Source: Aldersonia kunmingensis (GTDB lineage Bacteria; Actinomycetota; Actinomycetes; Mycobacteriales; Mycobacteriaceae). From it: a stretch of 64,000 nt of DNA. Numbering within the stretch: the first letter of the stretch is position 1; every line of letters starts with the position of its first letter. The translations under genes were made by a program, and so were the position numbers. The notes under the pieces are model-generated. The model searched no databases and was not told the origin of the DNA. It saw only the letters and a program-made list of their open reading frames with translations. This document shows, one piece after another, positions 8,567 to 39,662 of the stretch. The stretch covers positions 1 to 64,000 of the forward strand of contig NZ_LRRB01000161.1 of the NCBI RefSeq assembly GCF_001646865.1, in the 5' to 3' direction.

Positions 8567-9300
8567 CGGTCATCAGCGACCATGAACTAGCCGCCAAGCT
8601 CGCGACCGACGCGGGCCGGCTGCTGCTCGGCGTGCGCGAGGAGTTCGCCGAAGCGAGCACCGCGGAACGAAAGGACGCCGGAGACAAGCGCTCCCACGAC
8701 TTCCTGATGGCCGAGCTCGCGCGGTACCGGCCCGACGACGCCGTACTGTCCGAGGAAGGCATCGACGATCCGGTTCGGCTCGAATCACGGCGGGTGTGGA
8801 TCGTCGACCCGCTGGACGGCACTCGCGAGTTCTCCGAGCTCGGTCGCGACGACTGGGCCGTCCACGTCGCGTTGTGGGAAAGCGGCGCGCTGATCGCGGG
8901 TGCGGTGGCACTGCCCGCCCAGGACATCACGCTTGCAACGCCGACCGTGGCCGCTCCCCCGGCGATGCCCGCGGCGCCGCGCGTCGTGGTGTCCCGCAGC
9001 CGTCCCCCGGCGGTCGCGCTGGAGGTCCGCAAGCATCTCGACGGCACGCTCGTCGAAATGGGCTCGGCCGGTGCCAAGGTGGCGGCCGTCGTACAGGGCC
9101 TCGCCGATGTCTACGTGCATGCCGGCGGCCAGTACGAATGGGACAACGCGGCCCCCGTAGCGGTAGCTCGCGCCGCCGGTCTGTACACCGCACGTATCGA
9201 TGGCAGCGAACTGGAGTACAACCGCCGCGACCCCCGGCTGCCGGACCTCATCGTCTGCAGGCCTGAACTCGCGGACTCCGTTCTCGCCGTCACGAGGTAG
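8563..9300 (+). CDS. cysQ: 3'(2'),5'-bisphosphate nucleotidase (CysQ)
   Basis: This 245-residue member of the inositol monophosphatase superfamily would recycle 3'-phosphoadenosine 5'-phosphate, the by-product of PAPS use. Metal-binding motifs are SEEG (Glu65 region) and DPLDGT at 82-87, followed by [16 protein letters not shown] and, near the C-terminus, [19 protein letters not shown]. The length suits mycobacterial CysQ. Its ATG overlaps the cysNC stop (ATGA), and the pathway context supports this call over inositol phosphatase. Confidence 0.93.
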
Positions 9301-23590: not shown

Positions 23591-24376
23591 ATGCCGTTGT
23601 CATCTCCGGTGGAAAATGCCGTCCTCGTCGAGCAGCAGGGCCCGGTTCTGGTCATCACGCTCAACCGTCCGGACCAGCGCAACGCGCTCGATGCCGCCAC
23701 CATGTCCGGCATCGGGTGCGCGCTCACGGATGCGGAGCACGACGACGCCGTGGCGGTGGTTGTGCTGACGGGCGCTGGTGACCGCTCGTTCTGTGCCGGT
23801 CTCGACCTGAAGGCCTTCGCCGCGGGCGGTCGGCCGCCGCTGCCCGTCGAGGGCCCCGGTCTGGATGTGCTGCTGACCCGGACGTACCCCAAGCCTGTGG
23901 TCGCGGCAGCCAATGGGAGCGCGTTCGCGGCCGGATTCGAACTACTGCTCGCCTGCGACATCATCGTCGCCGCCGACCACGCCAAGTTCGGCATTCCGGA
24001 GGTCAAGCGCGGACTCGTCGCCGCCGGCGGCGGCATCACCCAACTCCCCCGCCGCATTCCGCTGGCGATCGCCCTCGAACTCGGACTCACCGGGGATTCG
24101 ATCGACGCCGACCGTGCCTACTCGCTGGGTCTGGTGAATCGCGTGGTGCCCGGCGCCGAGGTCGCAGCGACTGCACTGGCCATTGCGCAGACCATCGCCG
24201 CGAATGCGCCGCTCGCCGTTCGGTTCACCAAGGAACACATGCACGCCGCGACAGCCGCCGACACCGCCCGGCAGACCGTCCACGCACGCCTGCCGGAGAT
24301 CCTCACCAGCGCGGATGCCGCCGAGGGTGCCCGCGCATTCGCCGAGCGTCGGCCGCCCGCCTGGGCGGGGCGCTGA
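23591..24376 (+). CDS. Enoyl-CoA hydratase (crotonase family) with both catalytic glutamates
   Basis: This 261-residue crotonase has the oxyanion loops RSFCAGLDLKAF and GSAFAAGFELLLACD. The two glutamates needed for hydration are in AGFELLL and GIPEVKRGL. It is the only one of the seven crotonase-family proteins in the window that keeps both, so it is the best candidate for a true 2-enoyl-CoA hydratase. ATG at 23591 has GGAG unusually close (one base); a GTG at 23555 is an alternative. It heads the plus-strand operon leading to FadD, DUF35 and thiolase genes, but FadD has its own operator at 24414. Confidence 0.9.
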   Translation: MPLSSPVENAVLVEQQGPVLVITLNRPDQRNALDAATMSGIGCALTDAEHDDAVAVVVLTGAGDRSFCAGLDLKAFAAGGRPPLPVEGPGLDVLLTRTYPKPVVAAANGSAFAAGFELLLACDIIVAADHAKFGIPEVKRGLVAAGGGITQLPRRIPLAIALELGLTGDSIDADRAYSLGLVNRVVPGAEVAATALAIAQTIAANAPLAVRFTKEHMHAATAADTARQTVHARLPEILTSADAAEGARAFAERRPPAWAGR

Positions 24377-24413
24377 TCGACGGCGAATCCGCCTCCACGC
24401 ACTATCGCAAGCC

Positions 24414-24434
24414 TTTCCGTATGGCTTACAGTGG
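24414..24434. promoter_or_regulatory. 21-bp palindromic operator, site E
   Basis: Arms TTTCCGT and ACAGTGG flank ATGGCTT in the 106-base gap between the crotonase stop (24376) and the FadD start. It implies a separate promoter for the FadD-DUF35-thiolase genes. Confidence 0.6.
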
Positions 24435-24482
24435 CCGGAGAACAGACGCGTGTCCAACGATCCCGCCACACGAGGAGCAGCG

Positions 24483-26147
24483 TTGCCCGACACCAGCCCC
24501 GAGCAGGCCGAGTTCAATATCGCGGCCATCGCCGACCACGTCGCCGCGGCCATCCCCGATCGTGACCTCATCGTTTTCCGCGGCCGGCACCACAGCTATG
24601 CGCAGGTCACCGAGCGGGCCCGACGCCTGGCGTCGTACCTGCACTCGCGCGGACTGGGTTGCCACACCGAGCGGTCGGCGTTGCCCGGACACGAGACCGG
24701 CCAGGATCTGCTCGGCATCTACGCCCACAACGGCAACGAGTACGTCGAGTCGATGCTCGGAGCATTCGGCGCACGGGTGGCACCGTTCAACGTCAACTAC
24801 CGCTACGTGAAGAGCGAACTTCAATACCTGCTCGCCGATTCCGGTGCCACCGCGCTGGTCTATCACGCGGCCTTCGCTCCACGTCTTGCCGAGGTTCTCC
24901 CAAACCTCCCGTCGCTGCGTGTGCTCATCCAGATCGCCGACGATTCGGGAAACGCACTGCTCGACGGTGCGGTTGACTACGAAACGGTCATCGGCGAAAA
25001 CGCACCCGCCGCGCCGGTCATCCCGTCAGCGGACGATCTCTACGTCCTGTACACGGGCGGCACAACGGGAATGCCGAAGGGCGTGCTGTGGCGCCAGCAC
25101 GACATCTACATGGGCGCGTGCGGAGGCAAGGCGCTCGACTCCGGCAATGCGGTCACGTCCTACGACGAGATCGTGAACAAGGCCGCCGCGAATCCCGGAA
25201 TGCGAATCATGGTGCTGCCGCCGCTGATGCACGGCGCGGCGCAGTGGGCCGCAATGACCGCGCTATCGTCCGGGCAGACACTGGTGTTTCCCGATGTTGT
25301 CGACCGACTCGACACCGAATCGATACTCCGGACCATCGATCAGGAAAAGCCGGCGGTGATTCAGGTGGTTGGCGATGCCGTCGCACGACCGCTCATCGCC
25401 GCCTTCACCGCTGGGGCGGTGGACCTTTCGTCGGTCTTCGCGATCGCCAATGGCGGGGCAATCCTCTCCCCCACTGTCAAGCAGCAACTGATCGAGGCGC
25501 TTCCGAACGCGATCGTGCTCGACGGTGTCGGATCGTCGGAGACGGGCTACCAGATGATCCACACGTCGATGAACGGCGCGGTTTCCACCGGAAAGTTCAC
25601 CGGCAGCACCGACACTCGCGTCGTGTCGGAGGATCGTGACGCCCTCCTCGAGCCCGGCCACGAGGGCATCGGCTGGCTTGCCCAGCGCGGATCCGTTCCG
25701 CTCGGCTACAAGGGCGACGAAACCAAAACGGCTGCAACGTTTCCCGTGATCGATGGCGTGCGGTACTCGCTACCCGGCGACCGCGCGACATTGCTGGCCG
25801 ACGGCTCGGTCCAATTGCTGGGCCGCGATTCGGTGACGATCAACTCCGGTGGCGAGAAGATCTTCGTCGAGGAAGTCGAGATCGCCCTGGCATCCCATCC
25901 CGCTGTCATGGATGTGGTTGTGGCCGGCCGGCCGAGCGAACGGTGGGGCGAGGAGGTCGTCGCCATCGTGGTGCTAGTCGACGACGCGAGCGCCGACGCC
26001 AACGAACTCATCGAGCATTCCGCGCAGTCCCTGGCCCGCTACAAGCTCCCCAAGGAAGTGCTGTTCCGCCCCACGATCGAGCGCAGCCCGGTCGGTAAGG
26101 CCGACTACCGATGGGCGCGCGAACAGGCCGCGGCCACCGCTTCCTAG
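24483..26147 (+). CDS. Acyl-CoA ligase, FadD19-like
   Basis: This adenylate-forming CoA ligase of about 554 residues has the P-loop YTGGTTGMPKG, A5 motif GVGSSETGYQM, hinge-region GRDSVTINSGGEKIFVEEVE and the C-terminal catalytic Lys in PVGKADYRW. It is a close relative of the ligase at 17027 and resembles mycobacterial FadD19, which activates C24-branched steroid acids. TTG at 24483 is chosen because GAGGAG lies five bases upstream and the N-terminus then matches the family; GTG at 24450 is possible. It is followed by the DUF35/thiolase pair, which fits activation of a branched acid before C-C cleavage. Confidence 0.9.
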   Translation: MPDTSPEQAEFNIAAIADHVAAAIPDRDLIVFRGRHHSYAQVTERARRLASYLHSRGLGCHTERSALPGHETGQDLLGIYAHNGNEYVESMLGAFGARVAPFNVNYRYVKSELQYLLADSGATALVYHAAFAPRLAEVLPNLPSLRVLIQIADDSGNALLDGAVDYETVIGENAPAAPVIPSADDLYVLYTGGTTGMPKGVLWRQHDIYMGACGGKALDSGNAVTSYDEIVNKAAANPGMRIMVLPPLMHGAAQWAAMTALSSGQTLVFPDVVDRLDTESILRTIDQEKPAVIQVVGDAVARPLIAAFTAGAVDLSSVFAIANGGAILSPTVKQQLIEALPNAIVLDGVGSSETGYQMIHTSMNGAVSTGKFTGSTDTRVVSEDRDALLEPGHEGIGWLAQRGSVPLGYKGDETKTAATFPVIDGVRYSLPGDRATLLADGSVQLLGRDSVTINSGGEKIFVEEVEIALASHPAVMDVVVAGRPSERWGEEVVAIVVLVDDASADANELIEHSAQSLARYKLPKEVLFRPTIERSPVGKADYRWAREQAAATAS

Positions 26148-26197
26148 TCCCACGCAGATTGCCCGGGCGCTGCCCGTTGATCACGGAGGTTTACTCG

Positions 26198-26614
26198 ATG
26201 CAAAAGGCACTGGCGCCGGAGATTTCAACCTGGCCGGACGTCGAACCACAGCTCATTGGCAGCAATTGCGGCCAGTGCGCCGCAACCGTTTTCCCGGCGC
26301 AGCCACGGTGTCCGCGATGCAGCGGGACCGACATGTCCGACCTGCCGTTGCCGCGGCGGGGAACGCTCATCGCATGGACCACGCAGGGCTTTCTGCCCGG
26401 ACAGCCCTATCGCGGGCGGGAGACACCGAAGACGTTCATCCCGTTCGGCGTCGGGCTCGTTCAACTCGGCGATGTGATCCGGGTCGAGGGCCGGCTCACC
26501 GAGAGCGATCCCGACAAGCTCACCTTCGGCATGGACATGGAACTCACCATGGTGCCGTTCACCACCGATGACGACGGCACCGAAGTCATCACTTTCGCCT
26601 TTCAACCGGTCTGA
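26198..26614 (+). CDS. DUF35 Zn-ribbon/OB-fold protein
   Basis: This 138-residue protein has an N-terminal rubredoxin-like zinc ribbon (C-x2-C in NCGQCAATVF and C-x2-C in PRCPRC), then an OB-fold (GVGLVQLGDVIRVEGRL). DUF35 proteins pair with thiolase-fold enzymes and in steroid catabolism form the ChsH2-Ltp2 retro-aldolase. The ATG has CGGAGGT eight bases upstream. It is followed by a thiolase-fold gene 18 bases on, the expected partner. Its likely role is to complete or support an acyl-CoA retro-aldol lyase; without a MaoC domain it is shorter than ChsH2. Confidence 0.87.
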   Translation: MQKALAPEISTWPDVEPQLIGSNCGQCAATVFPAQPRCPRCSGTDMSDLPLPRRGTLIAWTTQGFLPGQPYRGRETPKTFIPFGVGLVQLGDVIRVEGRLTESDPDKLTFGMDMELTMVPFTTDDDGTEVITFAFQPV

Positions 26615-26632
26615 CCGAGAGGACATTTCGCC

Positions 26633-27778
26633 ATGCACGATGTCGCGATCATCGGGGTGGGCATGCACCCGTTCGGCCGGTTCGACGGCAAGTCGGCCAT
26701 GGAGATCGGCGCGGACGCGATCTTCGACGCGCTCGCCGATGCCGGCCTCGAGTGGCGGGATATGCAATTCGCCATCGGCGGTAGTTGGGAGATTGCCAAC
26801 CCGGACGCGATCGTCAGTCTGGTTGGCCTGACTGGGATTCCGTTCACGAATGTGTTCAACGCGTGTGCAACGTCGGCGAGCGCCATCGGCGCGTGCGCGG
26901 ACAACATTCGACAGGGCAAATTCGACATAGGGATTGCGATCGGCCTGGACAAGCACCCACGCGGTGCGTTCACCGCCGATCCCACGCTGGTGGGTATGCC
27001 GACGTGGTACGCCGAAAATGGCCAGTACCTGACCACGAAGTTCTTCGGCATGAAGGCCAACCGCTATATGCACGACCACGACATCTCCCACGCGACCTTG
27101 GCCAAGGTTGTCACGAAGAATCTGCGCAACGGTGCGCTCAATCCGAATGCATTCCGGCGCAAGCCGATTCCGGAGGAAGACATCCTCGCTGCTCCGATGC
27201 TGAACTACCCGCTCACGCAGTACATGTTTTGCGCGCCCGACGAGGGCGCTGCGGCGGCGATCATGTGCCGCGCCGATATCGCGCACCGGTACACCAGTAA
27301 GCCGGTCTACCTGCGCGCGGCCGAGATCAGAACGCGCACTTACGGTGCGTACGAGGTGAATACGACGTTCGCACCGGTCGAGGAGGTCGCCTCTCCCAGC
27401 GTGTTCGCCTCACAGGCCGCCTTCGAGAAGGCCGGGATCGCACCGGCCGATATCGACGTGATCCAACTCCAGGACACAGACGCGGGCGCGGAGGTCATTC
27501 ATATGGCCGAGGCGGGATTCTGCGCCGACGGCGAGCAGGAGAAGCTCATCGCCGATGGGGCAACCGAGATCGGCGGGTCGATGCCGGTCAACACGGACGG
27601 CGGCCTGATCGCCAACGGTGAGCCAATCGGTGCCTCGGGCCTGCGGCAGGTGTATGAGCTGACGAAGCAACTACGCGGTGAAGCCGGCGAACGCCAGGTC
27701 GGCGGGACACCGCGCGCGGGATTTGCCTTGCTGTACGGCGCCCCCGGAACCGCGGGCGCAACGATCATCACGACCTGA
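26633..27778 (+). CDS. Thiolase-fold lipid-transfer protein (Ltp/SCP-x type), probable retro-aldolase
   Basis: This 381-residue protein has the thiolase fold with the SCP-x type N-terminus VAIIGVGMHPFGRFDGKS and an active-site region NACATSASAIGACAD containing Cys. The C-terminal NTDGGLIANGEPIGASGLRQ replaces the canonical thiolase GHPxGxSG loop, as in Ltp2, Ltp3 and Ltp4. Those proteins, with a DUF35 partner, cleave beta-hydroxyacyl-CoAs by retro-aldol reaction in sterol side-chain degradation. The DUF35 gene immediately upstream supports this. Direct thiolysis is the alternative. Confidence 0.87.
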   Translation: MHDVAIIGVGMHPFGRFDGKSAMEIGADAIFDALADAGLEWRDMQFAIGGSWEIANPDAIVSLVGLTGIPFTNVFNACATSASAIGACADNIRQGKFDIGIAIGLDKHPRGAFTADPTLVGMPTWYAENGQYLTTKFFGMKANRYMHDHDISHATLAKVVTKNLRNGALNPNAFRRKPIPEEDILAAPMLNYPLTQYMFCAPDEGAAAAIMCRADIAHRYTSKPVYLRAAEIRTRTYGAYEVNTTFAPVEEVASPSVFASQAAFEKAGIAPADIDVIQLQDTDAGAEVIHMAEAGFCADGEQEKLIADGATEIGGSMPVNTDGGLIANGEPIGASGLRQVYELTKQLRGEAGERQVGGTPRAGFALLYGAPGTAGATIITT

Positions 27779-27785
27779 ATCCGTT

Positions 27786-27813
27786 GGCGCCCCTCGCAAT
27801 TGCGAGGGGCGCC
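27786..27813. terminator. Perfect 28-bp palindrome between convergent genes
   Basis: A fully self-complementary 28-base sequence, each arm GGCGCCCCTCGCAA, lies eight bases after the thiolase-fold gene stop and eight bases before the stop of the convergent P450 gene. It is a bidirectional terminator by position. There is no spare loop, so the RNA hairpin would open a few central AATT pairs. Confidence 0.8.
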
Positions 27814-27821
27814 ACCCGGGC

Positions 27822-29027
27822 CTATCGGCGGATACGCACTGGCACGCTGCCCCATCCGGCAACGTTCGCCATGGTGACGCGCCGGCACCGGTCCCAGGTC
27901 ACCTCGTAGTCGGGCATGAAATCGAGCATCCGCTCGAGCGCAATGGCGCTTTCCATTCGCGCGAGCGCCGCCCCAAGGCAGCTGTGCACGCCATACCCGA
28001 AGGCGAGATTCTGTGCCTCGGTCCGGTCCCGGTCGATATCGAAGACGTCGGCATCCGTGAACGCCTCGGGATCACGGTTGGCCGAGCCGCTCACAAGGAA
28101 CACCGGCTTGCCCGCGGGGATCGTCACGCCGTGGAACGTGGTCTCCTGCATCGAATAACGCACGTTGTACTGATTCGGCGACTCGAAGCGGAGCAGTTCT
28201 TCTACTGCCGCCGGGATCTTGGTGCGATCTTCGCGCAGCTTCTGCCATTCGCCGGGGAAGCGGGCGAAGGTCACCGCGGCACTGCCGACGAGTTTGGCCA
28301 CGGTCTCCGCGCCGGCGCCGCCGAGCAGCGACGCGAACATGGCGATCTCCATGGTGCTGAGCCTGGTCGCCTCGTCACCGTCGCCGGCAACGTTCGCCTG
28401 TACCAGGCGCGAGATCATGTCGTCCTGTGGTTCCGCGCGACGCTGCTTGACCAGTCCGTAGTAGAACCTGGATATCTCGACGACCGCATTGAACCCCTTC
28501 TCGGACATCTCGAGTTGGCCGATCTCGCGGTGCAGAAGCTCGTCGTTCCACAGTCGCACCTGCTCGCGCGCCTCTTCGGGTACACCCAGCATCCGCGAGA
28601 TCACCTCCATCGGGAACAGCGCCGAGAAGTCCTGCACCACATCGAATTCGGCGGGGTCCGCCGCAGCGAGGAACCGGTCGATCTGCTCGGCGATCATCGG
28701 GCGCAGCTCCGCGATCGCGCGGGGGGTGAAGACCTTGTTGACCAGGCTGCGCATCTCGCGATGGTCCGGTGGGTCGAGCACGATGATCGACTTGTGTGGC
28801 GGGATCTCACCGCGCCGCACGGTGGCGAGATCGATTCCGCGCGCGGACGAGAAGGTCTCGAAATCCTTGTAGCAGGCGGCGACGTCCTCGTGGCGGGACA
28901 GCGCGTAGAAGTCGTATTGCTCGCTGTAATAGACCGGAGCCTCGTCACGCATCCGGCCGTAGAGCTCGTACGCGCCGTTGAAGAACTCTGCGGAGAACGG
29001 GTCGAACACGAGCTTGGTTTTCGTCAC
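27822..29027 (-). CDS. Cytochrome P450
   Basis: This 401-residue P450 has the heme-Cys loop LAFGYGVHSCLGAALARME, ExxR in EELLRF, and an I-helix reading GGAGAETV, with Ala-Glu-Thr where AGxDT is usual. The N-terminus (VFDPFSAEFFNGAYELYGRM) and the C-terminal VAGWGSVPVRIRR do not match CYP125, CYP142 or CYP108 closely, so no family is assigned. GTG at 29027 has GGGAGAG upstream and is preferred over ATG at 29045. It is transcribed leftward from the two-operator region at 29074-29186. It presumably hydroxylates a pathway lipid and needs an external ferredoxin. Confidence 0.9.
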   Translation of the reverse strand: MTKTKLVFDPFSAEFFNGAYELYGRMRDEAPVYYSEQYDFYALSRHEDVAACYKDFETFSSARGIDLATVRRGEIPPHKSIIVLDPPDHREMRSLVNKVFTPRAIAELRPMIAEQIDRFLAAADPAEFDVVQDFSALFPMEVISRMLGVPEEAREQVRLWNDELLHREIGQLEMSEKGFNAVVEISRFYYGLVKQRRAEPQDDMISRLVQANVAGDGDEATRLSTMEIAMFASLLGGAGAETVAKLVGSAAVTFARFPGEWQKLREDRTKIPAAVEELLRFESPNQYNVRYSMQETTFHGVTIPAGKPVFLVSGSANRDPEAFTDADVFDIDRDRTEAQNLAFGYGVHSCLGAALARMESAIALERMLDFMPDYEVTWDRCRRVTMANVAGWGSVPVRIRR

Positions 29028-29073
29028 TGATCTCTCCCGGATCACAGCATCGGAACAACACCACTTGGCTTAC

Positions 29074-29094
29074 TTACCGTAAGCCATACTATAT
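29074..29094. promoter_or_regulatory. 21-bp palindromic operator, site F
   Basis: Arms TTACCGT and ACTATAT flank AAGCCAT, 47 bases before the P450 start at 29027. A second, perfect dyad overlaps it: GGCTTAC (29067-29073) and GTAAGCC (29079-29085). Confidence 0.65.
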
Positions 29095-29165
29095 GTTTTT
29101 CAACCCCGCTGGACCCCCTCTTTGCCGGGAGCGAAGAGAATGTTTGTCCACGCCACCCGAAGGTA

Positions 29166-29186
29166 TTACTGTCCTCCTTACAGTAA
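29166..29186. promoter_or_regulatory. 21-bp palindromic operator, site G
   Basis: Perfect seven-base arms TTACTGT and ACAGTAA flank CCTCCTT, 53 bases before the SDR start at 29239. This is the best match to the consensus and forms a pair with site F in the same divergent promoter region. Confidence 0.75.
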
Positions 29187-29238
29187 ATCCGGCCGCGTGG
29201 ATCACCAGCGGTACGAGAACGCTTGGGAGGTCACACGG

Positions 29239-30024
29239 ATGGGTGCGGCACAACGCAAGGTCATCGTGGTCGGCGCGGGTTCGGGAATCGGTGCCGCCAC
29301 CGCAGCCCATTTCCACGAACGCGGGGACCACGTACTCGCTGTCGATGTCCGGGAATCCGACACCCCGGCCACCGAATTTCGACGCTGCGACCTGCGAAAC
29401 CCGTCCGACGTCGAGGACCTGCTGCGTGACGTCGGCTCAGGCTGGGACCTGCTCGCACATGTGGCGGGCGTGCCGGGTACCGCCCCGGCCGCGGAGGTAA
29501 TGAAGATCAATTACTTCGGCATGCGGCTCATGGCCCTGGGCATGCTGCCGCTGCTGCAGCCCGGTGGCTCGATCGTGGCGGTGGCCTCCACCGCTGGCGT
29601 CGGCTGGGAAATGCGCGCGGCACAGCTCGAAGACCTCCTCTCCGCAACCGATCCAGCGGCCGTCGAATCGTGGCTCGCCGGACAAGATCCGTCGTACCCG
29701 GTCTACAACACCTCGAAAGAGGCAGTGATTCTCTTCGCCAAGCGCCTCTCAGGGCCGGCGTGGGCGAAGTACGGCGTGCGGATCAATACCGTCAGCCCCG
29801 GCCCGACCGAGACGCCGATTCTCACCGACTTCGAGGAGTCGATGGGGCGAGACCTGCTCGACACCGTGCGGACCACGGTGGGACGGCATGCCACCGTCGA
29901 CGACATCGTGCCGATCATCGCCTTCCTTGGATCCCCCGAGGCGCGCTGGATCACCGGGCAAGATATTCGCGCCGATGGCGGATTCGTGAATTCGCTACTC
30001 GCCGGTCCGCCGATCGCCCTCTAA
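29239..30024 (+). CDS. Short-chain dehydrogenase/reductase (3-alpha-HSD-like)
   Basis: This 261-residue SDR has the nucleotide-binding motif GAGSGIG at about 12-18 and the catalytic YNTSK. An insertion of about 30 residues between the active-site Ser segment (AVASTAG) and Tyr (LEDLLSATDPAAVESWLAGQ) is typical of the 3-alpha-hydroxysteroid dehydrogenase/carbonyl reductase subgroup. The ATG has GGGAGG upstream. It is followed 50 bases later by a CYP124-like P450, so it may oxidise the alcohol made by a P450. A ring hydroxyl as substrate would also fit; neither is shown. Confidence 0.88.
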   Translation: MGAAQRKVIVVGAGSGIGAATAAHFHERGDHVLAVDVRESDTPATEFRRCDLRNPSDVEDLLRDVGSGWDLLAHVAGVPGTAPAAEVMKINYFGMRLMALGMLPLLQPGGSIVAVASTAGVGWEMRAAQLEDLLSATDPAAVESWLAGQDPSYPVYNTSKEAVILFAKRLSGPAWAKYGVRINTVSPGPTETPILTDFEESMGRDLLDTVRTTVGRHATVDDIVPIIAFLGSPEARWITGQDIRADGGFVNSLLAGPPIAL

Positions 30025-30074
30025 CGTCTAGCCAACGCACCGATGTGCCCAACCGTCAGCCCCCGGAGGACCGA

Positions 30075-31346
30075 TTGACTGCCACCGACGCGCCGCCCTC
30101 GCCGCATCCGTACCACCGCCTCGACATCTCGGCGCAGGACTTCTGGGACCGCGATTTCCGCTCCCGCGATGACGCGTTCGCAGAACTCCGCGCGGAAGAG
30201 GGGCTGAGCTGGCACCGGCCCGTCGATGCGATCTTCCCGCACGAGGAAACTGGCTACTGGGCGCTGACCAGGCACGCGGATATCAAATTCGCCAGCCAGC
30301 GCAACGATCTTTTCGGCTCGAGCTTCGGGATCAGCGTCGACCCGATGCCCGCCGAGATCCAGCGCGGCATCTCGTTCTTCCTCTCCATGGATCCGCCGGA
30401 CCACACCCGCTACCGCCGGTTGATCAGCATGTCGTTCACGCCGCGCCAGGTCCGCCGCATCGAGGATCAGATCAAGAACAATTCGCGCGAGATTGTCGAC
30501 CAGTTGATCGAGGACCTTCGCGCCGGCAAGCAGGTCGACTTCGCCGCCGACGTCTCCACCAAGCTGCCGATGCGGACGATCTCGGACATGATCGGCATCG
30601 AGCCGGAGGACCGGGAAAAGGTCGCTTACGCTGCGGAGTGCCTGTTCAGCACCACCGATGCGGACTATGCCTCGCTCGAGGAGCGGGCGATCCACACCAT
30701 GACACAGCTGGGCATCCTGACCCAGGCCGGTAAGGATCTCGCAGTATTGCGGCGCGCCGAGAAGCGCGAAGATCTCATGAGCAACATCGTCGAGGCGGAG
30801 GTGGACGGCCACCGCCTTACCGACGACGAGATCGGCGCGTTCATGGTGCTGCTCGGTTCGGCCGGCAACGACACCACCAAGCAGACCACCTCGCACGCCT
30901 TCCGCGCACTCTTGGATAGCCCCGAGCAGATCGCTTGGCTGCTGGACGATTTCGACAACCGGATCGATGGCGCGGTGGACGAGTTCGTGCGCTGGGCGAC
31001 GCCGGTGCTGAGCTTCGCCCGCCATGCACTCGTCGACACCGAACTAAGCGGGACATCAATCGCCGCCGGAGAGAAGGTCGGGCTGTTCTATTGCTCGGCG
31101 AACCGCGACCAAACGGTCTTCGACCGGCCGTACGAGTTCGACATCACCCGCTCCCCGAATCCGCACCTCGGCTTCGGCGGCGGTGGCGCGCACTTCTGCC
31201 TCGGCAGCCAGCTCGCGAAGATGCAGCTGCGCCATCTGTTTTACGAGCTGTTGACCCGCGTCCCCGCGGTCGAGCTCGGTGAGCCGGAATACCTGCACAG
31301 CAATTTCGTGCACGGCATCAAGCGGATGCCGATCACCCTGGCCTGA
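30075..31346 (+). CDS. Cytochrome P450, CYP124/CYP125-like
   Basis: This 423-residue P450 has the I-helix motif SAGNDTTKQ, ExxR in DEFVRW, and the heme-Cys loop GFGGGGAHFCLGSQLAKMQ. The GGGGAHFCLG loop and the C-terminal LHSNFVHGIKRMPITLA match the CYP124/CYP125 group, which hydroxylates terminal methyls of branched lipids and sterol side chains. The TTG start has GGAGGA four bases upstream. It is the second gene of the SDR-P450 unit behind operator G. Terminal oxidation of an isoprenoid-like chain is the most likely activity. Confidence 0.9.
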   Translation: MTATDAPPSPHPYHRLDISAQDFWDRDFRSRDDAFAELRAEEGLSWHRPVDAIFPHEETGYWALTRHADIKFASQRNDLFGSSFGISVDPMPAEIQRGISFFLSMDPPDHTRYRRLISMSFTPRQVRRIEDQIKNNSREIVDQLIEDLRAGKQVDFAADVSTKLPMRTISDMIGIEPEDREKVAYAAECLFSTTDADYASLEERAIHTMTQLGILTQAGKDLAVLRRAEKREDLMSNIVEAEVDGHRLTDDEIGAFMVLLGSAGNDTTKQTTSHAFRALLDSPEQIAWLLDDFDNRIDGAVDEFVRWATPVLSFARHALVDTELSGTSIAAGEKVGLFYCSANRDQTVFDRPYEFDITRSPNPHLGFGGGGAHFCLGSQLAKMQLRHLFYELLTRVPAVELGEPEYLHSNFVHGIKRMPITLA

Positions 31347-31373
31347 TCACGGGAATCTTGGTAGAGCTGTGAC

Positions 31374-31826
31374 GTGCGTGAATTTGATGACCTTGCCTTT
31401 GCCACTCGTCTGCGGCCGCTCGACGGCTTGATCGAGTGTGGTGGCGACTACGACTGTGTCGTCATCGACGGTGTCGAACCATCGCGAGTGGTTGCGCGTG
31501 ACGCGACGTTCGAGGAGTGCGCATTCCGGGCCACGAGCCTGACGTCGGCCGACCTCACGGGGTCCCGGTGCGCAGACTCATGGTTCCGCAACGTCGACCT
31601 CACGGGGGTCACTCTCAACGAGGCCTATTGGCAGGACAGCGAACTGATCGAATGCGGCCTGTCCGGCATGGAAGCAACCGGCGCGGAGCTGCGGCGAGTC
31701 ACATTCGACGGCTGCAAGCTGGACGGAGCCAACTTCCGTGGCGCCCGGCTCACCGACGTCACCTTCCCAGACTGCGTGCTGCGCGGACGACTGCCGTGCG
31801 GAAAGGATCTCAACGCGAGCTGTGGG
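31374..31826 (+). pseudogene. Pentapeptide-repeat protein, 3'-truncated
   Basis: From GTG at 31374 the frame encodes a right-handed pentapeptide-repeat protein (FEECAFRATSLTSADLTGSR, FRNVDLTGVTLNEAYW, GCKLDGANFRGARLTDVTF) recognisable for about 138 residues, to 31787. The repeat pattern then stops, and the frame runs on without a stop through the antisense of the SDR gene to 32666. Relatives usually carry further repeats and total about 200 residues. The gene therefore appears to have lost its 3' end where the SDR-thiolase operon begins, marking a recombination junction. The original function of such proteins is unclear. Confidence 0.7.
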
Positions 31827-32624
31827 TCAGGTGAAATCGGTTCCACCGTCGACATTCACGTTGGCCCCCGTCATATAGGAATTCCGCCGCGACGCCAAGA
31901 AAGCGACGACCGGACCGATCTCCTCGGGCAGCCCCACACGGGGCAGATGCGCCGGGTGGCCAAAATGCTCGGTGATGGCGTCCATCAGGAGGTACGGGTC
32001 ATCGGTATCGACGCCAACCGACTTCGCCCAGCCCACAAGCGAATCGGACGCCACGCTGCCGGGCGAGATGACGTTCACCATGATCTCGTCCGTGGCAAGC
32101 AGCAGGGCAAGATTCTTCGAGATGCTGGCCACCATCGCCTTCGCGGCGGTGTAAGCGGCCAGCGAAACAGTCTGCCGCTGTGTGGAACTCGCCGAGAAGT
32201 TGACGATGCGCGCCCACTCGGCGTTTCGCAGCAACGGCAGCGCCGACTTGACGCAGTTCACCATCGCGAGCGCCCCGATATCGACAGCAGCGTGCCACTG
32301 CTCGCTGGTCAGGTCCTCAACCGTGCCACGCACATCCGGTCCGACAGCGTTGACGAGAACGTTGATCGAACCACCCCATCGCTCGTCCAGATCGGCGAAC
32401 ACTTCTGCGACCCGGTTCTCGTCGCGAAGGTCGGCGATGAGCCCGACCGCATCCGGGCTGCCGAGCCGGGTCAGTTCTTCGATGGCGCGGTCGAGATCGG
32501 CATCGGTACGGCCGATCACCGCAACCCGTGCGCCGTCTTCGGCGAAGCAACGGGCGGCGGCCAGGCCCATACCCCGGCTGCCGCCCGCTACTACGACACG
32601 CGCATCCGCGAATCCCAGATCCAC
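31827..32624 (-). CDS. Short-chain dehydrogenase/reductase
   Basis: This 265-residue SDR has the cofactor motif GGSRGMG at about 15-21, NAVGP in place of NNAG, Ser in SASSTQRQ and catalytic YTAAK. The C-terminus ends in VNVDGGTDFT, as usual for the classical family. The start is GTG at 32624. It lies 28 bases downstream of the thiolase, in a two-gene leftward operon under operator H. It probably oxidises a 3-hydroxyacyl-CoA or pathway alcohol. Its 3' end abuts the truncated pentapeptide gene. Confidence 0.88.
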   Translation of the reverse strand: MDLGFADARVVVAGGSRGMGLAAARCFAEDGARVAVIGRTDADLDRAIEELTRLGSPDAVGLIADLRDENRVAEVFADLDERWGGSINVLVNAVGPDVRGTVEDLTSEQWHAAVDIGALAMVNCVKSALPLLRNAEWARIVNFSASSTQRQTVSLAAYTAAKAMVASISKNLALLLATDEIMVNVISPGSVASDSLVGWAKSVGVDTDDPYLLMDAITEHFGHPAHLPRVGLPEEIGPVVAFLASRRNSYMTGANVNVDGGTDFT

Positions 32625-32652
32625 AGTGCTTCAGTACTTTCCGGTGATCTTG

Positions 32653-33828
32653 TCAGACCTCGATGATGACGGCGCCACCCTGGCCGCCGCCGGCGCACAT
32701 CGCCGCGACACCGATACCGCCACCTCGGCGCTGCAGCTCGTAGACGAGCGTGGTCACCATGCGCGCGCCCGAGGCCGCGATCGGGTGGCCCAGGCTGCAC
32801 CCGCTGCCGGAGAAGTTCACCAACTCCTCGTCGATCCCCCACTTGCGGCACGCAGCGATCGGCACGGACGCGAACGCCTCGTTGATCTCCCACAGCGCAA
32901 TGTCGGACGGCTTCAGCCCGGCCCGGTCGAGCACCTTGCCAATCACCTCGACGGCGCCCAAGCCGGTGTCGCGCGGCGCCACACCGGCGGAACCCCACGC
33001 GCGCACCGTACCGAGAACCGTCAAACCCTCAGCGGCGGCGAGACTTTCGTCGGCCAGCGTCACGGCCGCGGCGGCATCGTTGATGCCGCTGCTGTTGCCG
33101 GCGGTGATCGAGAAGCCCTCGATCTCCGGGTGTAGCACCTTCAGTCCGGCGAGACGCTCCATCGTGGTGTCGCGGCGCGGGTGCTCATCGACCGTGAACT
33201 CGAAGACGCTTCCGTCGGGACCCTGAACCTTGAGGGGGACGATCTCGTCGAGGAACTTTCCGGCGTCCTGCGCGGCAACCGCGCGCGCATGTGAGCGGCA
33301 CGCCCACTCGTCCATTTCCTCACGGCTGATGCCCGCCGCCTTCGCCGTGTTCCAACCCACCGTGATCGACATGTCGCGAGTCGGGGCATCGGGCGTTTCC
33401 GGGTGGGTCGGCGGCATCCAGGGCTCCTGGAACTGCAAGTCCGGACCCGGTATCCGCCATTTCATGATCGGACTGGTGGACAGGGACTGCACACCACCGG
33501 CAACCAGCACGCGCTCCATACCGGAGCCGATCTGGGCCGCGGCATTTCCAATCGCCGTCAGGCTGCCCGCGCAGTGCCGGTTGACGGCCTGGGCGGGCAC
33601 GCTCTCCATACCCGTCGCCGCAGCCGCGTAGCGGGCAAGATCGCCTCCGCCGTATCCCGATTCGGCGAGAATGATGTCGTCGACGAGCGCGGGATCGATA
33701 CCGGCTCGACGGACGACCTCGGGAAGGATGGTCGTCGCCAACGTCTCCGAGGTGGTGTTGGCGAGCGTTCCCTTGAACGACCGACCGATGGCGGTCCTGG
33801 CGGCACTGACGATCACGGGTTTCGACAT
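32653..33828 (-). CDS. Acetyl-CoA acyltransferase (thiolase)
   Basis: This 391-residue thiolase has all three catalytic elements: the nucleophilic Cys in NRHCAGSLTAIG, His in LGHPIAASGARM and the second Cys in MCAGGGQGGA. It would cleave a 3-ketoacyl-CoA with CoA in beta-oxidation. The region around GGVQSLSTSPIMKWR differs from short-chain acetoacetyl-CoA thiolases, suggesting a larger acyl group. It starts with ATG behind GAGGTCGAG and is first in the operon controlled by operator H. Confidence 0.93.
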   Translation of the reverse strand: MSKPVIVSAARTAIGRSFKGTLANTTSETLATTILPEVVRRAGIDPALVDDIILAESGYGGGDLARYAAAATGMESVPAQAVNRHCAGSLTAIGNAAAQIGSGMERVLVAGGVQSLSTSPIMKWRIPGPDLQFQEPWMPPTHPETPDAPTRDMSITVGWNTAKAAGISREEMDEWACRSHARAVAAQDAGKFLDEIVPLKVQGPDGSVFEFTVDEHPRRDTTMERLAGLKVLHPEIEGFSITAGNSSGINDAAAAVTLADESLAAAEGLTVLGTVRAWGSAGVAPRDTGLGAVEVIGKVLDRAGLKPSDIALWEINEAFASVPIAACRKWGIDEELVNFSGSGCSLGHPIAASGARMVTTLVYELQRRGGGIGVAAMCAGGGQGGAVIIEV

Positions 33829-33902
33829 ATTTTCTCGACCTCGTTATGGCTGGCTGCAGAAGGCAGCGTGGGCATGTTCAGTTACTTAGAAATTCGTACG
33901 AA

Positions 33903-33923
33903 CTACCGTAGGGCTAACGGTAT
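33903..33923. promoter_or_regulatory. 21-bp palindromic operator, site H
   Basis: Arms CTACCGT and ACGGTAT flank AGGGCTA; six of seven arm positions are self-complementary. It lies 75 bases before the thiolase start at 33828 and just after the crotonase stop at 33949, giving the thiolase-SDR pair its own promoter. Confidence 0.75.
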
Positions 33924-33948
33924 CGGGTGATCGGCACGCTGTCAGCCC

Positions 33949-34860
33949 CTAGGTCTCCTCTGGTTCCGGCACGTAGAAATGCTCGTCACGCAGCCGGAAT
34001 GCCTCCTTCGTACCGTGCTGAGCACGGGTCTTCACGAAGTTGAACTCGCCCGGCGCGAACTGCAGATTCGTGCCGTACGCGTGGAAGATGTAGCTCGCTA
34101 CTTCCTCCCCCTGATAGGCCTGGCTCTGCTCGACGAGGCGGAACGCCTCCTTGGCCATGACCACGCCATCCGCCGGCATCCGCGCCGCCTTCTCGGCCCA
34201 ATACCGGGCCCGGGCGGTCACCGCGGTGGGCGAGCACGTCTCGGTGAAGACACCGAGGTGTTCGACCGAGGCTGCCTCGATGATGTCGCCGGTCAGCAGC
34301 ATCCGCCGCGCCAGGACGGGGCCGAGTCGATGGAAGAACATATGCAGGCTGCCGAGTGCAGGACCGAGGAAACGCGTGGCCGGCATGCCGATCTTGGTGT
34401 CGCGTGCGATCACCGAAATATCGGTCATCAACGCCATTTCGAACCCGCCGCCGAGCGCGTATCCGCCGATCTCCCCCACAGTGACCTTCGGGAAGCCCAT
34501 GAAGTTGTGGTAGAAGCCGAACGACTTGCGGTCGACGGTCAGCCTGCGGCGCTGGCTTGGCCGGCTCTTCGCGGGCTTGTCTCCGGAACCCGGACCGCCC
34601 GAACCATTCTCGTTGCCGTACCAGCCATACGCGTTGTTCATATCCGCGCCGGTACTGAAGACTCCTTCGGCACCACGCAGCAGGACGACGGTCACGTCGT
34701 CATCCTCGGCAACGGTGTCGAGGTGGCGCGCCAGCGCGTCACGCATAGCCGCGTCGTACGAATTGCGCTGCTTCGGATTGTTCAGGGTGATCGTGGCAAT
34801 CCGGTTGTCGCGGTCCACCTCGAACAGCACCCGAGAATCGTGAGTTTCGACATCTGTCAT
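33949..34860 (-). CDS. Enoyl-CoA hydratase/isomerase family protein
   Basis: This 303-residue crotonase has an insertion of about 25 residues after the first oxyanion loop (NAYGWYGNENGSGGPGSGDK), making it longer than usual. The first catalytic Glu is kept (GGGFEMALMTD) but the second site reads GMPATRFLG, with Ala. It may catalyse isomerisation, dehydration or C-C cleavage instead of simple hydration. The ATG at 34860 overlaps the hotdog gene stop (ATGA), so the two are translationally coupled. Confidence 0.87.
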   Translation of the reverse strand: MTDVETHDSRVLFEVDRDNRIATITLNNPKQRNSYDAAMRDALARHLDTVAEDDDVTVVLLRGAEGVFSTGADMNNAYGWYGNENGSGGPGSGDKPAKSRPSQRRRLTVDRKSFGFYHNFMGFPKVTVGEIGGYALGGGFEMALMTDISVIARDTKIGMPATRFLGPALGSLHMFFHRLGPVLARRMLLTGDIIEAASVEHLGVFTETCSPTAVTARARYWAEKAARMPADGVVMAKEAFRLVEQSQAYQGEEVASYIFHAYGTNLQFAPGEFNFVKTRAQHGTKEAFRLRDEHFYVPEPEET

Positions 34861-35567
34861 TGCTGGTGAATCCCTCCTTGCGCACGGCGCTTGCCGTACC
34901 GGTGGCCGACGAGTTTGTCCGGCGGCAGTGCGACCGCATCGACTTCCCCGGTGCACAACACCTCGTCGCCGAACAGAAGGCGTGCGATTGACGTGATGGC
35001 GCGGTCCGTCTGCTGCCGAGTGATATCGAACCGCAGTTCGGTGGCCAGCGGAGTCGGACGCCGGTAGCTGACGTTGAGCGACCTGGTCTTGCCGGACCTT
35101 CCGGTCGCACAGTTGTGCTGCTGAACTATGCAGTCGAAGAAAACACCGAGGAAACCGCCGTGGACCAGGCCGGGAGGGCCCTCGAAGACGATCGGAAAGG
35201 TCACCGTTCCACCGGCCGAGTCGGCATCGATGCGCTCGAACCGGTATTCGGGGAAGCTCGGGTTGTACGAGCCGATATCGAAGGCATGGTCGAGGTAGAT
35301 CCGCCGGGATTCCGCCAGGTCGTCACCCACCCGCGGTAAAACGTCCGGCGGGGCAGCGGCGGAGAGGTCGCGCTCCCATTCTGCGAATTGCGCGAGCATG
35401 CCGTCCACGACCGAGTGCTCGTGTTCGAGCGATAACAGCAGAACGCTCAGTCGGCGCATGGCGGCGGCCGCGGCGCGGGTTTGCTCGAGCGGCTGTTCGC
35501 CGAACCGCACAGCGGAATCATCGGCAGCGATCCCACCGATTTCGGACACGTCGCCGTGCTGCGCCAT
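34857..35567 (-). CDS. Hotdog-fold acyl-CoA thioesterase (PaaI-like)
   Basis: This 236-residue protein carries a C-terminal hotdog domain with the PaaI-type segment GPPGLVHGGFLGVFFDCIVQ, followed by TRSLNVSYRRPTPL. The N-terminal 100 residues are helical and not recognised. Thioesterases of this type release free acids from CoA esters and may rescue CoA from dead-end intermediates. It is the first gene of a leftward pair with the crotonase at 33949, divergent from the five-gene rightward operon across operator I. Confidence 0.8.
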   Translation of the reverse strand: MAQHGDVSEIGGIAADDSAVRFGEQPLEQTRAAAAAMRRLSVLLLSLEHEHSVVDGMLAQFAEWERDLSAAAPPDVLPRVGDDLAESRRIYLDHAFDIGSYNPSFPEYRFERIDADSAGGTVTFPIVFEGPPGLVHGGFLGVFFDCIVQQHNCATGRSGKTRSLNVSYRRPTPLATELRFDITRQQTDRAITSIARLLFGDEVLCTGEVDAVALPPDKLVGHRYGKRRAQGGIHQQ

Positions 35568-35640
35568 AGGCCCTCTTTCCGCGGGTTGTTCCGTCCGCTG
35601 TCTTTCCTTGCTACCTTGTGCGAGACAGTAACGGTATCGC

Positions 35641-35661
35641 CTACCGTAGTGTTAACAGTAT
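35641..35661. promoter_or_regulatory. 21-bp palindromic operator, site I
   Basis: Arms CTACCGT and ACAGTAT flank AGTGTTA in the 118-base divergent gap between the hotdog (start 35567) and crotonase (start 35686) genes. An overlapping dyad, CGGTA (35632-35636) and TACCG (35642-35646), adds further half-sites. Confidence 0.75.
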
Positions 35662-35685
35662 CGCCCGGAAGGTGCGTACACAACG

Positions 35686-36522
35686 GTGACCAGAGACGCT
35701 GTAACAGCGGCAAGCACGAGCAGCGTGCGGGTGGATCGCGATGGTGCGGTGCTGCACCTCACGCTGGATCGCCCCTCCGCACGTAACTCGCTGAGCCCCA
35801 GCATGATCGAGACGCTGATCCGCACACTTACCGATGCTGCGACCGACGATTCGCTGCGCGCGATTCACATCACGGGGGCGGGCGACAACTTCTGCTCGGG
35901 CGCGGACTGGCTCGCGACCAACGACAAGCCCGCCGACGGCTCGCGTCCGGCGCGTCCACGAACCGGCGACCTCGTCCGCCGCATACCGCACGCGGCGAAT
36001 CGGGTCGTCGAACTAGTGCACACCATTCAGCTACCTGTGGTGTGCAGCGTCCGCGGCTGGGCGGTCGGCCTCGGCTGCAATCTGGCCATCGCCGCGGATT
36101 TCACGATTGCCGCCGACGACGCGGTGTTCTGGGAGCCGTTCCTCGCGCGAGGTTTCAGCCCCGACTCCGGCGCCACGTGGCTACTCCCCCGCCTGGTCGG
36201 AATCGCCCGCGCCAAGCGAATGCTGCTACTGGGCGAGAAGGTGAGCGGCGCCCATGCCGAGGATTGGGGACTGGTGCACCAGAGCGTCGAAACGGCCGAA
36301 CTCGACACGGCAACAGCGCAATTGCTCGACCAGCTCGCCTCCGGCCCGACGGTGGCAATCGGCCTCGCCAAGCAAGCCATCCACAACGGCGCGAACGCGA
36401 GCCTCGGACAGGCAATGACCCAGGAGCTGTACAACTTGGAATTGTCCTGCCGAACAACAGATTTCAAGGAGGGGCTGGCTGCCTTCCGCGAGCGCCGACC
36501 GCCGGACTTCGATGGCCGCTGA
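35686..36522 (+). CDS. Enoyl-CoA hydratase/isomerase family protein
   Basis: This 278-residue crotonase is first in a tandem of three. Oxyanion loops are NFCSGADWL and GWAVGLGCNLAIAAD. The first catalytic glutamate position is Asn (GCNLA), and the second region reads WEPFLARGFSPDSG, where the Asp matches the carboxylate of PaaG-type isomerases. A double-bond isomerase role is therefore more likely than hydration. The start is GTG. It heads a five-gene operon with two more crotonases and two adenylate-forming enzymes. Confidence 0.87.
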   Translation: MTRDAVTAASTSSVRVDRDGAVLHLTLDRPSARNSLSPSMIETLIRTLTDAATDDSLRAIHITGAGDNFCSGADWLATNDKPADGSRPARPRTGDLVRRIPHAANRVVELVHTIQLPVVCSVRGWAVGLGCNLAIAADFTIAADDAVFWEPFLARGFSPDSGATWLLPRLVGIARAKRMLLLGEKVSGAHAEDWGLVHQSVETAELDTATAQLLDQLASGPTVAIGLAKQAIHNGANASLGQAMTQELYNLELSCRTTDFKEGLAAFRERRPPDFDGR

Positions 36523-36571
36523 TATTCCAGCCGGAGGCGCGTCCGCAGCGCGTCTCGATGAAGGGAACACG

Positions 36572-37375
36572 ATGTCGTTCGACACGATCAAATACGAGGT
36601 CGAAGGCCACACGGCCACCATTACGCTCAACCGTCCGGACGCACTCAATGCGCTCAGTCCGCACATGATCAGCGAGCTGCGCGCCGCCTACGCCGAGGCG
36701 GAGCACGACGACCAGGTGTGGCTGCTGATCGTCACCGGTAGTGGGCGGGCGTTCTGCACCGGAGCGGACGTCAAGGAGATCCCCGGCGACGGGAAGGTCA
36801 TCAACGAACGGCCTTACCTGTCCACCTACGAACAGTGGGAAGCGCCGCAGGAGGGCACGCCGCCGTACCGCAGCATGGCCAAGCCGGTACTCGCCGCGAT
36901 CAATGGCCTGTGCTGCGGCGCAGGCCTCGACTGGGTCACCACCGGGGATATCGTCATCGCGTCGGATAAGGCCACATTCTTCGACCCACACGTCAGCATC
37001 GGCCTCGTCGCCGGGCGCGAGGTCGTTCGGCTCGCGCGCGTTCTCCCGCGCAACGTCGCACTGCGCATGGCGCTGGTCGGCAAACACGAGCGGATGAGCG
37101 CTCAGCGCGCGTACGAGTTGGGCATGATCACCGAAGTGGTCGAGCACGACCGCCTGCTCGAACGCGCGCATGAGATCGCCGCGATCGTGAACTCCAATGC
37201 GCCGCTTGCGGTTCGAGGCTCCCGGCTCGCGATTCTGAAGGGCCTCGACCTCCCCGTGCACGAGGCCGAGATGCTCGCCGAATCGTTCCGCGAGCGCGTC
37301 ACCCGCACAGAGGATGCCCTGGAGGGGCCGCGCGCGTTTGTCGAGAAGCGCCCGCCGAACTGGCAGTGCCGATGA
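36572..37375 (+). CDS. Crotonase family protein with Asp/His active-site variant
   Basis: This 267-residue crotonase-fold protein has loops AFCTGADVKE and GLCCGAGLDWVTTGD. The two glutamate positions are Asp (AGLDW) and His (FFDPHVSIGLV). The next gene has a similar FFDSHVSAGLV segment, so the two are probable paralogues with a chemistry other than standard hydration. ATG at 36572 with AAGGGAA upstream is preferred; an in-frame ATG at 36512 would overlap the previous gene. The stop overlaps the next start (ATGA). Confidence 0.85.
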   Translation: MSFDTIKYEVEGHTATITLNRPDALNALSPHMISELRAAYAEAEHDDQVWLLIVTGSGRAFCTGADVKEIPGDGKVINERPYLSTYEQWEAPQEGTPPYRSMAKPVLAAINGLCCGAGLDWVTTGDIVIASDKATFFDPHVSIGLVAGREVVRLARVLPRNVALRMALVGKHERMSAQRAYELGMITEVVEHDRLLERAHEIAAIVNSNAPLAVRGSRLAILKGLDLPVHEAEMLAESFRERVTRTEDALEGPRAFVEKRPPNWQCR

Positions 37376-38166
37376 GCACCTACGAGACGATTCTGCTCGA
37401 GGTCAACGCGGAGGCTCACGTTGCCACCATCACCCTGAACCGGCCCGACAGGCTCAACTCGTTCAATCGCACGATGTGCGAGGAGATGGAACGGGCCTGG
37501 CGGGCGATCAAATCCGACGACTCGGTCCACGCCGTTGTATTGCGCGCGGCCGGGGACCGGGCATTCAGCGCCGGCCTGGACATCAAGTCCAGCTACGGGC
37601 AACCGGACAACATCTGGAACCACGAGGATCCGGGAGAGCTGCTGAGCCCGAAGTGGCAGAAGATGTGGAAGCCAGTCGTATGCGCCGTACAGGGCATGTG
37701 CACCGCCGGTGCGTTCTATTTCATTAACGAAGCCGATGTCGTGATCTGCTCGGAGGACGCCACGTTCTTCGATTCGCATGTCTCCGCCGGCCTGGTGTCG
37801 GCACTGGAACCGGTCGGCCTGATGCGCCGCGTCGGGCTCGGCGAAACGCTGCGCATGGCGCTGCTCGGCAACGACGAACGGGTCGGCGCCGACACCGCAC
37901 TGCGCATCGGCCTCGTCACCGAAGTCGTAGCGGGAGATGCTCTCTGGGCACGAGCACACGAGATTGCCGCAACCATTGCCGCCAAGCCGCCGACCGCCAC
38001 TCAAGGCACAGTCCGTGCAATCTGGGAATCGCTGGACAAGCCGTACCGGGTGGCCATGGAGCAGGGGCTCATCTACACACGCCTCGGCAATCCGATCGGG
38101 ACCGCCGAACTGGCGGCCGGGCCGAATGGTTCGGCTCCGAACCAAGCCAAGCCGAGGATCCGGTGA
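37372..38166 (+). CDS. Crotonase family protein with Tyr/His active-site variant
   Basis: This 264-residue crotonase-fold protein has AFSAGLDIKS and GMCTAGAFYFINEAD as oxyanion loops. The glutamate positions are Tyr (AGAFYF) and His (FFDSHVSAGLV). With the preceding gene it forms a paralogous pair sharing the FFDxHVSxGLV signature. Two variant subunits encoded back to back could form a mixed trimer or act in sequence. The ATG overlaps the upstream stop, and the stop overlaps the next gene's start. Confidence 0.85.
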   Translation: MSTYETILLEVNAEAHVATITLNRPDRLNSFNRTMCEEMERAWRAIKSDDSVHAVVLRAAGDRAFSAGLDIKSSYGQPDNIWNHEDPGELLSPKWQKMWKPVVCAVQGMCTAGAFYFINEADVVICSEDATFFDSHVSAGLVSALEPVGLMRRVGLGETLRMALLGNDERVGADTALRIGLVTEVVAGDALWARAHEIAATIAAKPPTATQGTVRAIWESLDKPYRVAMEQGLIYTRLGNPIGTAELAAGPNGSAPNQAKPRIR

Positions 38167-39662
38167 TGTCAGAACCAGCATCAGACATGCTGGACCACCG
38201 GCTCGTTCGGCGGATCGACGCAGTGCTCGACCTCGATCCCGGAACGCCCGCAATCGAATACGACGGGAACTGGTACAGCCTCGGCGACATCGGGACGCTC
38301 GCGCGGGCGATATCGGCACTCGTCGGCCCAGAGCCGCGGGTCGGGGTCCTGCTGCGCAATCGACCCGCACACATCGCCGCATTTCTGGGTGTACTGCTCA
38401 CAGGTGGTTGTGTCGTCGTCATCAACCCGGCGCGCGGTGACGACCGGACGCGCTCCGATATCGCGGCCCTCGAACTGCCCGTGATCATCGGTGAGCTGGA
38501 CGACCTGAGCACCCTCGTTGCCCCGTCCGCGGAGACCACCCAGATCTCGATCGCCGACGCGACCGACGAGCCACACATCGTCGCCGCCGGCCGGCCGGCG
38601 GGCGATGCGGGTCGCCCCGGCGTGGCTGTGCACATGCTGACGAGCGGAACCACCGGTCCACCGAAGCGGGTCGACCTGACATACGACATGCTCGCGCACA
38701 GCGTTCTCGGCCCCGCACGCGACGACGAAACCGCACCCACCGCCCCTCCGCGCGGGGTTGCCATTGTGAACGCGCCGCTCGTCCATATCGGCGGCGTCTT
38801 CCGGGTGCTGCAATGCGTCACCGCCGCACGCTCGTTCGTGCTGCTCCCGCGATTCGAGCTCGAACCGTGGGCGCGTGCGGTGCGCGAATATCGCCCGCGC
38901 ACGGTCTCGCTTGTCCCCGCCGCCCTGCGTATGGTGCTGCATTCGGACCTCACCCGCGACGACCTGTCGAGCATCCGGGCGGTTACTTCCGGCACGGCAC
39001 CGCTGTCGGCCGACGACGCGGACGCGTTCACCACGAAGTTCGGGATCCCCGTGCTGACCTCTTATGCTGCAACCGAATTCGGCGGCGGCGTCGCCGGGTG
39101 GAACATCGCTGATCACGAGAAGTTCTGGTCCACCAAACGAGGCAGTGTGGGCCGCGCCGACCCCACCGCCCAGCTTCGTGTTGTCGATGAGGACGGCCGC
39201 ACGCTGCCCGCGGATACCGCAGGGCTGCTCGAGGTCAGACCCGGACAACTCGGCCCGGCAACGGACTGGATCCGTACGACGGACATCGCACGCATCGACA
39301 CCGACGGATTCCTCTGGATCCTCGGGCGCGCCGATCAGGCGATCATCCGTGGGGGGTTCAAGATCATGCCGGACGATGTACGAACCGCCTTGGAAGGCCA
39401 CCCCGCAGTGCAGGGGGCGGCGGTAGTCGGCCACCCGGATGATCGCCTCGGCGAGACGCCCGTCGCGATGGTCGAATTGCGCGATTCGAGCAGCACCACT
39501 CCGGACGAGTTGGTGCAGTATCTCGAAACCAGGTTGGCCCGCTACGAGATTCCCACTCGGATCGCTGTCGTCGACGCAATCCCGCGGACCCCCTCGGGGA
39601 AGGCCGATCTGACCGCGATCCGTGACCACTTCCGTTCAGCGCGGGGCGAATATGCCCACTAG
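38166..39662 (+). CDS. Adenylate-forming acid-CoA ligase, divergent P-loop
   Basis: This 498-residue class I adenylate-forming enzyme has the P-loop TSGTTGPPKRV (Arg instead of the usual Gly after Lys), A5 region SYAATEFGGG, hinge GRADQAIIRGGFKI and C-terminal Lys in TPSGKADL. It shares subfamily features with the enzyme at 45464 (HxLTSGTTGPPxRV, the N-terminal ANL domain shortened). ATG at 38166 has GAGGA seven bases upstream; GTG at 38163 is possible. It lies in the crotonase operon, so activation of a pathway intermediate or substrate acid is likely. The substrate is unknown. Confidence 0.85.
   Translation: MSEPASDMLDHRLVRRIDAVLDLDPGTPAIEYDGNWYSLGDIGTLARAISALVGPEPRVGVLLRNRPAHIAAFLGVLLTGGCVVVINPARGDDRTRSDIAALELPVIIGELDDLSTLVAPSAETTQISIADATDEPHIVAAGRPAGDAGRPGVAVHMLTSGTTGPPKRVDLTYDMLAHSVLGPARDDETAPTAPPRGVAIVNAPLVHIGGVFRVLQCVTAARSFVLLPRFELEPWARAVREYRPRTVSLVPAALRMVLHSDLTRDDLSSIRAVTSGTAPLSADDADAFTTKFGIPVLTSYAATEFGGGVAGWNIADHEKFWSTKRGSVGRADPTAQLRVVDEDGRTLPADTAGLLEVRPGQLGPATDWIRTTDIARIDTDGFLWILGRADQAIIRGGFKIMPDDVRTALEGHPAVQGAAVVGHPDDRLGETPVAMVELRDSSSTTPDELVQYLETRLARYEIPTRIAVVDAIPRTPSGKADLTAIRDHFRSARGEYAH

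Follow-up and report, generated by a model that had tools for sequence, protein, structure and literature searches.

A truncated pentapeptide-repeat gene, probably inserted between a cytochrome P450 gene and an SDR-thiolase operon in Aldersonia kunmingensis

Introduction

A pentapeptide-repeat gene of Aldersonia kunmingensis (NCBI RefSeq assembly GCF_001646865.1, contig NZ_LRRB01000161.1) raises two questions: whether it has lost its 3' part, and which of the genes at this place is the newcomer. It lies between a cytochrome P450 gene and the convergent SDR-thiolase operon (Table 1), in a window of 64,000 nucleotides (positions 1 to 64,000 of the contig, forward strand), which is the whole stretch of DNA analysed here. 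An interpretation made from this DNA alone (hereafter, the sequence-only reading) had taken the gene to be truncated at a junction with the operon, and had proposed that either the catabolic operon was inserted or a segment between them was deleted. One genome does not reveal which gene at a junction came in later, and the relatives compared in our study reverse that first reading. According to our results, about 450 bp with the truncated pentapeptide gene were very probably inserted between a P450 gene and an SDR-thiolase operon that were already neighbours, and the piece is now likely a remnant there.

Table 1. Coordinates of the features at the locus, given as positions in the window.
Feature	Coordinates	Strand	Evidence
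Cytochrome P450, upstream neighbour	30045..31346	+	Pfam p450 E 3.7e-21; identity 85% in G001, 67-69% in G043/G191
8-bp direct repeat GAGCTGTG, left copy (tentative scar)	31364..31371	+	Longest word common to both flanks
Pentapeptide-repeat gene, 5' two-thirds	31374..31787	+	Codons 1-138 of about 211; Pfam and orthologue alignment
Stretch of no recognised origin, 39 bp	31788..31826	+	Separates the break from the SDR stop codon; not significantly similar, in DNA or any frame, to the 3' part of the orthologues
8-bp direct repeat GAGCTGTG, right copy	31817..31824	+	Longest word common to both flanks
SDR-family oxidoreductase, intact, 265 aa	31827..32624	-	adh_short_C2 E 8.4e-46; identity 80% in G001 along all 265 aa
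Open frame, judged not coding	31830..32666	+	Antisense to the SDR and the thiolase 3' end; SDR without TTA/CTA/TCA; Pfam best stretches end by residue 138
Thiolase, 391 aa, same convergent operon as the SDR	32653..33828	-	Thiolase_N E 8.4e-55; 85% identical and collinear in G001

Results and discussion

Loss of the C-terminal third

The frame is open from 31374 to 32666 on the forward strand (430 aa, with no stop throughout in the list of open reading frames). It had been described as a clear pentapeptide frame to 31787, followed by a stop-free run antisense to the SDR gene, and our searches agree with that description. The best Pfam stretches are residues 68-137 for PF13599 (E 1.6e-18) and residues 104-138 for PF00805 (E 1.8e-17), with scores of 67 bits (cut-off 38) and 63 bits (cut-off 20.2) that place the gene in the superfamily; beyond residue 138, the search of the entire frame returned no best stretch.

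The family-level search covered 401 genomes, 44 of which had a match at E<=1e-12 (own genome counted in), and the order-level search covered 397 genomes in a sample that overlaps the former, with a match in 15. Lengths were counted at 39 loci (L002, L003 and L033-L069), while L104 and the family-search rows without a locus, two of which were later given loci, stand outside this count. Measured from the homologous start, the orthologues are 211-215 aa long at 38 of the 39 loci; the sole short one (L069, 122 aa) comes from a 74%-complete genome and ends at another point than the window gene. The window frame aligns to the orthologues up to residue 137/138 and no further, the nearest being those of G304 (61% identity over residues 1-137) and G189 (55%). 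We placed the end of the homology at about 31787 because, in a gap-free alignment with the G304 orthologue counted by eye, 18 of 22 residues agree just 5' of the break and 2 of 14 beyond it. The break at about residue 138 is close to the 3' end of the SDR gene, as had been claimed, though not exactly there: it lies about 40 bp ahead of the SDR stop codon.

In relation to the actinobacterial group of about 211-215 aa (PF00805/PF13599), the window gene shares the homology over residues 1-137, the repeat pattern and the conserved columns, but stops ~73 residues short of the end that 38 of the 39 relatives reach; it has neither the C-terminal repeats nor the C-terminal region of a full-length member. 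These comparisons indicate that the truncation is real against the orthologues. The earlier statement that C-terminal repeats are missing is thus borne out, and orthologues of equal short length, which that reading had named as evidence to look for against a truncation, are not what the 39 loci contain.

The missing part was also searched for elsewhere. The C-terminal 75 residues of the G304 orthologue gave no match at E<=10 in the own genome (a 330-contig draft), while the same query, as a control, recovered four of four orthologue-bearing genomes (E 8.9e-42 to 2.5e-15); in the congener G001 it returned noise only (best E 0.14). Since the own-genome search was null and the controls were strong, the C-terminal third has been lost, not displaced, as judged from the 330-contig draft. 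A frameshift in place of a truncation was considered and rejected: neither the DNA nor any of the three frames after 31785 is significantly similar to the 3' part of the orthologues (p of 0.71 and 0.18 for DNA and 0.24-0.49 for the peptide frames, against shuffled sequence). An internal repeat of 19 nt (74%; 31613-31631 and 31808-31826) hints that the tail beyond the break could be repeat-like, but the drop in agreement with the G304 orthologue puts the end of the homology at about 31787.

The open frame antisense to the SDR gene

From the coordinates, the pentapeptide frame and the SDR gene share one codon register, since 31830 and 31374 differ by a multiple of three. Because the registers coincide, antisense stops come solely from the SDR codons TTA, CTA and TCA, which are rare: the window SDR has none and 19 orthologues have 0-3; five of the 20 SDR genes, the window's included, are free of them, as is one of eight other window genes. 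The long open continuation requires no coding function because SDR codon usage explains the absence of stops, and no Pfam match supports a longer read-through protein, which the sequence-only reading had suggested looking for. An automatic caller may annotate a 430-aa 'pentapeptide protein' here; such a product probably does not exist.

Present state of the gene

Among the remaining codons, 24 of the 26 strongly conserved columns are retained, and the dN/dS of the window gene against its two nearest orthologues is 0.26 and 0.34, compared with 0.25 between those two. These ratios indicate that the gene was under selection during most of its history, and they tell little about the time after the truncation. 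No decay is visible in the remaining codons, which would suit either a recent truncation or a short form that is still used. A functional short form, a truncated helix of about 138-150 aa produced by itself or joined to an SDR-antisense tail, would fit the open frame, the retained columns and the dN/dS values. We nevertheless consider it unlikely: a short orthologue occurs at one of the 39 loci and ends elsewhere, the C-terminal region is missing, and the open antisense frame is accounted for by codon usage. The AlphaFold2 model from the single sequence (mean pLDDT 51.5) is too poor to use and is uninformative in this respect.

The gyrase-protecting MfpA and Qnr proteins belong to the same repeat class. 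The window gene has weak NCBIfam matches to both (Qnr 42.5 bits, MfpA 33.2 bits), far under the cut-offs of 240 bits for Qnr and 360 bits for MfpA, and is a member of neither family. In MfpA, EfsQnr, QnrB1 and AlbG, a C-terminal helix builds the head-to-head dimer (PMC8145042); the window gene lacks the C-terminal segment in which the dimer helices of MfpA lie according to that account. By analogy, the loss of the C-terminus should lower stability and dimerisation. In the solved relatives this region caps the helix and forms the dimer, and with it and the last repeats gone, function would probably be lost; the pentapeptide piece is most likely a remnant, either non-functional or decaying.

Gene order in relatives

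The flanking genes are intact, and adh_short_C2 spans almost the entire SDR, a gene of full length. The congener G001 has the window's gene order for the P450, SDR, thiolase and hydratases as well as for the two AMP-binding ligases, along a collinear span that extends from the ligase at 24183 through the ligase at 38163. The stop codons of the P450 and SDR genes are 26 bp apart in G001 (counted in the sequence) and 480 bp apart in the window. Two genomes of another genus (G191 and G043, genus g43) have the P450 and SDR genes as an adjacent convergent pair, with under 90 bp between the two. A pentapeptide match is absent from the P450-SDR loci of all three relatives, and the whole G001 genome has none at E<=1e-12. 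The gap comparison covers these three genomes from two genera, with G001 as the sole congener compared; in most other genomes that have both genes, the two are not adjacent.

Because the P450 and SDR genes adjoin without it in G001, G191 and G043, we infer that the pentapeptide piece is the newcomer and the catabolic genes are its old neighbours. The comparison with related genomes that the sequence-only reading had proposed does find intact orthologues beside other neighbours, as it envisaged, and the truncated gene does mark a junction, but the role of newcomer cannot be kept for the operon. In the insertion that we favour, about 450 bp with codons 1-138 of an actinobacterial pentapeptide gene for a protein of ~211 aa would have entered the convergent gap between P450 and SDR, a short target (26 bp in the congener), probably in a single event in this genome's own lineage. 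The last ~73 codons would have been dropped on or after arrival, with the breakpoint falling 40 bp ahead of the SDR stop codon. The earlier proposal of a deleted segment could hold to this extent, for the gene's own 3' third, and not otherwise. Such an insertion would be an ordinary event, of little importance beyond annotation.

The formal alternative is that the pentapeptide gene was ancestral between P450 and SDR, was cleanly lost in G001 and genus g43, and is decaying here after a deletion at its 3' end. Genes are often lost, the insertion is itself a reconstruction and one congener was compared; still, at least two independent clean losses would be required, the nearest relatives of the gene are in other contexts and the congener has no orthologue, which makes this history quite improbable. 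An insertion of the SDR-thiolase operon into a resident pentapeptide gene, severing its 3' end, would account for a break so close to the SDR 3' end. It is contradicted by the operon and P450 being collinear in the congener, by the adjacent P450 and SDR in the two g43 genomes, all without the pentapeptide gene, and by the severed C-terminus not being found in the own genome, and we regard it as very improbable. A new overprinted gene created by the insertion, with a single protein made from the truncated pentapeptide helix and a tail of ~290 residues off the antisense strand of the conserved SDR, is scarcely credible.

Origin of the inserted piece

A tree built from the window gene and 38 orthologues (39 sequences, with L069 excluded) joins the window gene to G304 and G189 with support of 100/99, on a long terminal branch (0.59), which places it in the ~211-aa actinobacterial group. 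G304 and G189 belong to a large genus (g22) of the same family as the window genome; nothing nearer than 61% identity was found among the 150 genomes of this genus that were searched. Within about 9 kb of the G304 and G189 orthologues there is no strong match to the tested window genes, which lie between 20 and 45 kb of the window. The source of the inserted piece would be an unsampled relative of the pentapeptide gene in this genus. A scan of the genome_contigs set gave one distant locus. A phage or plasmid donor looks unlikely from the best identities: 43% among the plasmid matches (42 records, half of them Streptomyces) and at most 36% among the 10 of 28 phage records listed.

With regard to the insertion points, the word GAGCTGTG is repeated on both sides of the piece, and the chance of such an 8-bp word is 0.011 by shuffling and 0.025 by positions of the same geometry in the window. 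Without one copy and everything between the two, 27 bp are left between the stop codons, against 26 in the congener. The repeat, spotted post hoc, is a weak hint of a target duplication or a microhomology scar. Inspection by eye showed neither a transposase nor a terminal inverted repeat at the inserted piece; the window has no tRNA, and the 27 bp ahead of the start codon do not significantly resemble the DNA upstream of the orthologues (p 0.91 and 0.43).

Other observations on the locus

The region 24183-39659 of the window contains two P450s, SDRs, two thiolases, several enoyl-CoA hydratase-like genes and two AMP-binding ligases. This cluster is collinear with that of the congener and looks like one for acyl-CoA side-chain catabolism. 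In the congener, the gap (L095, about 8795-8825) contains a near-perfect inverted repeat, GACTTCACC...GGTGAAGTC, across the SDR stop codon, which resembles a shared bidirectional terminator; its left arm is absent from window positions 31787-31830 (both by eye). One SDR orthologue (L078, G202:C97:27233-28024, 72% identity) has a single in-frame TGA. Likewise, the frames of the pentapeptide homologues in three genomes of genus g10 (G055, G157 and G010) read through one internal TGA, and these genes may be decaying too or represent a mis-joined frame.
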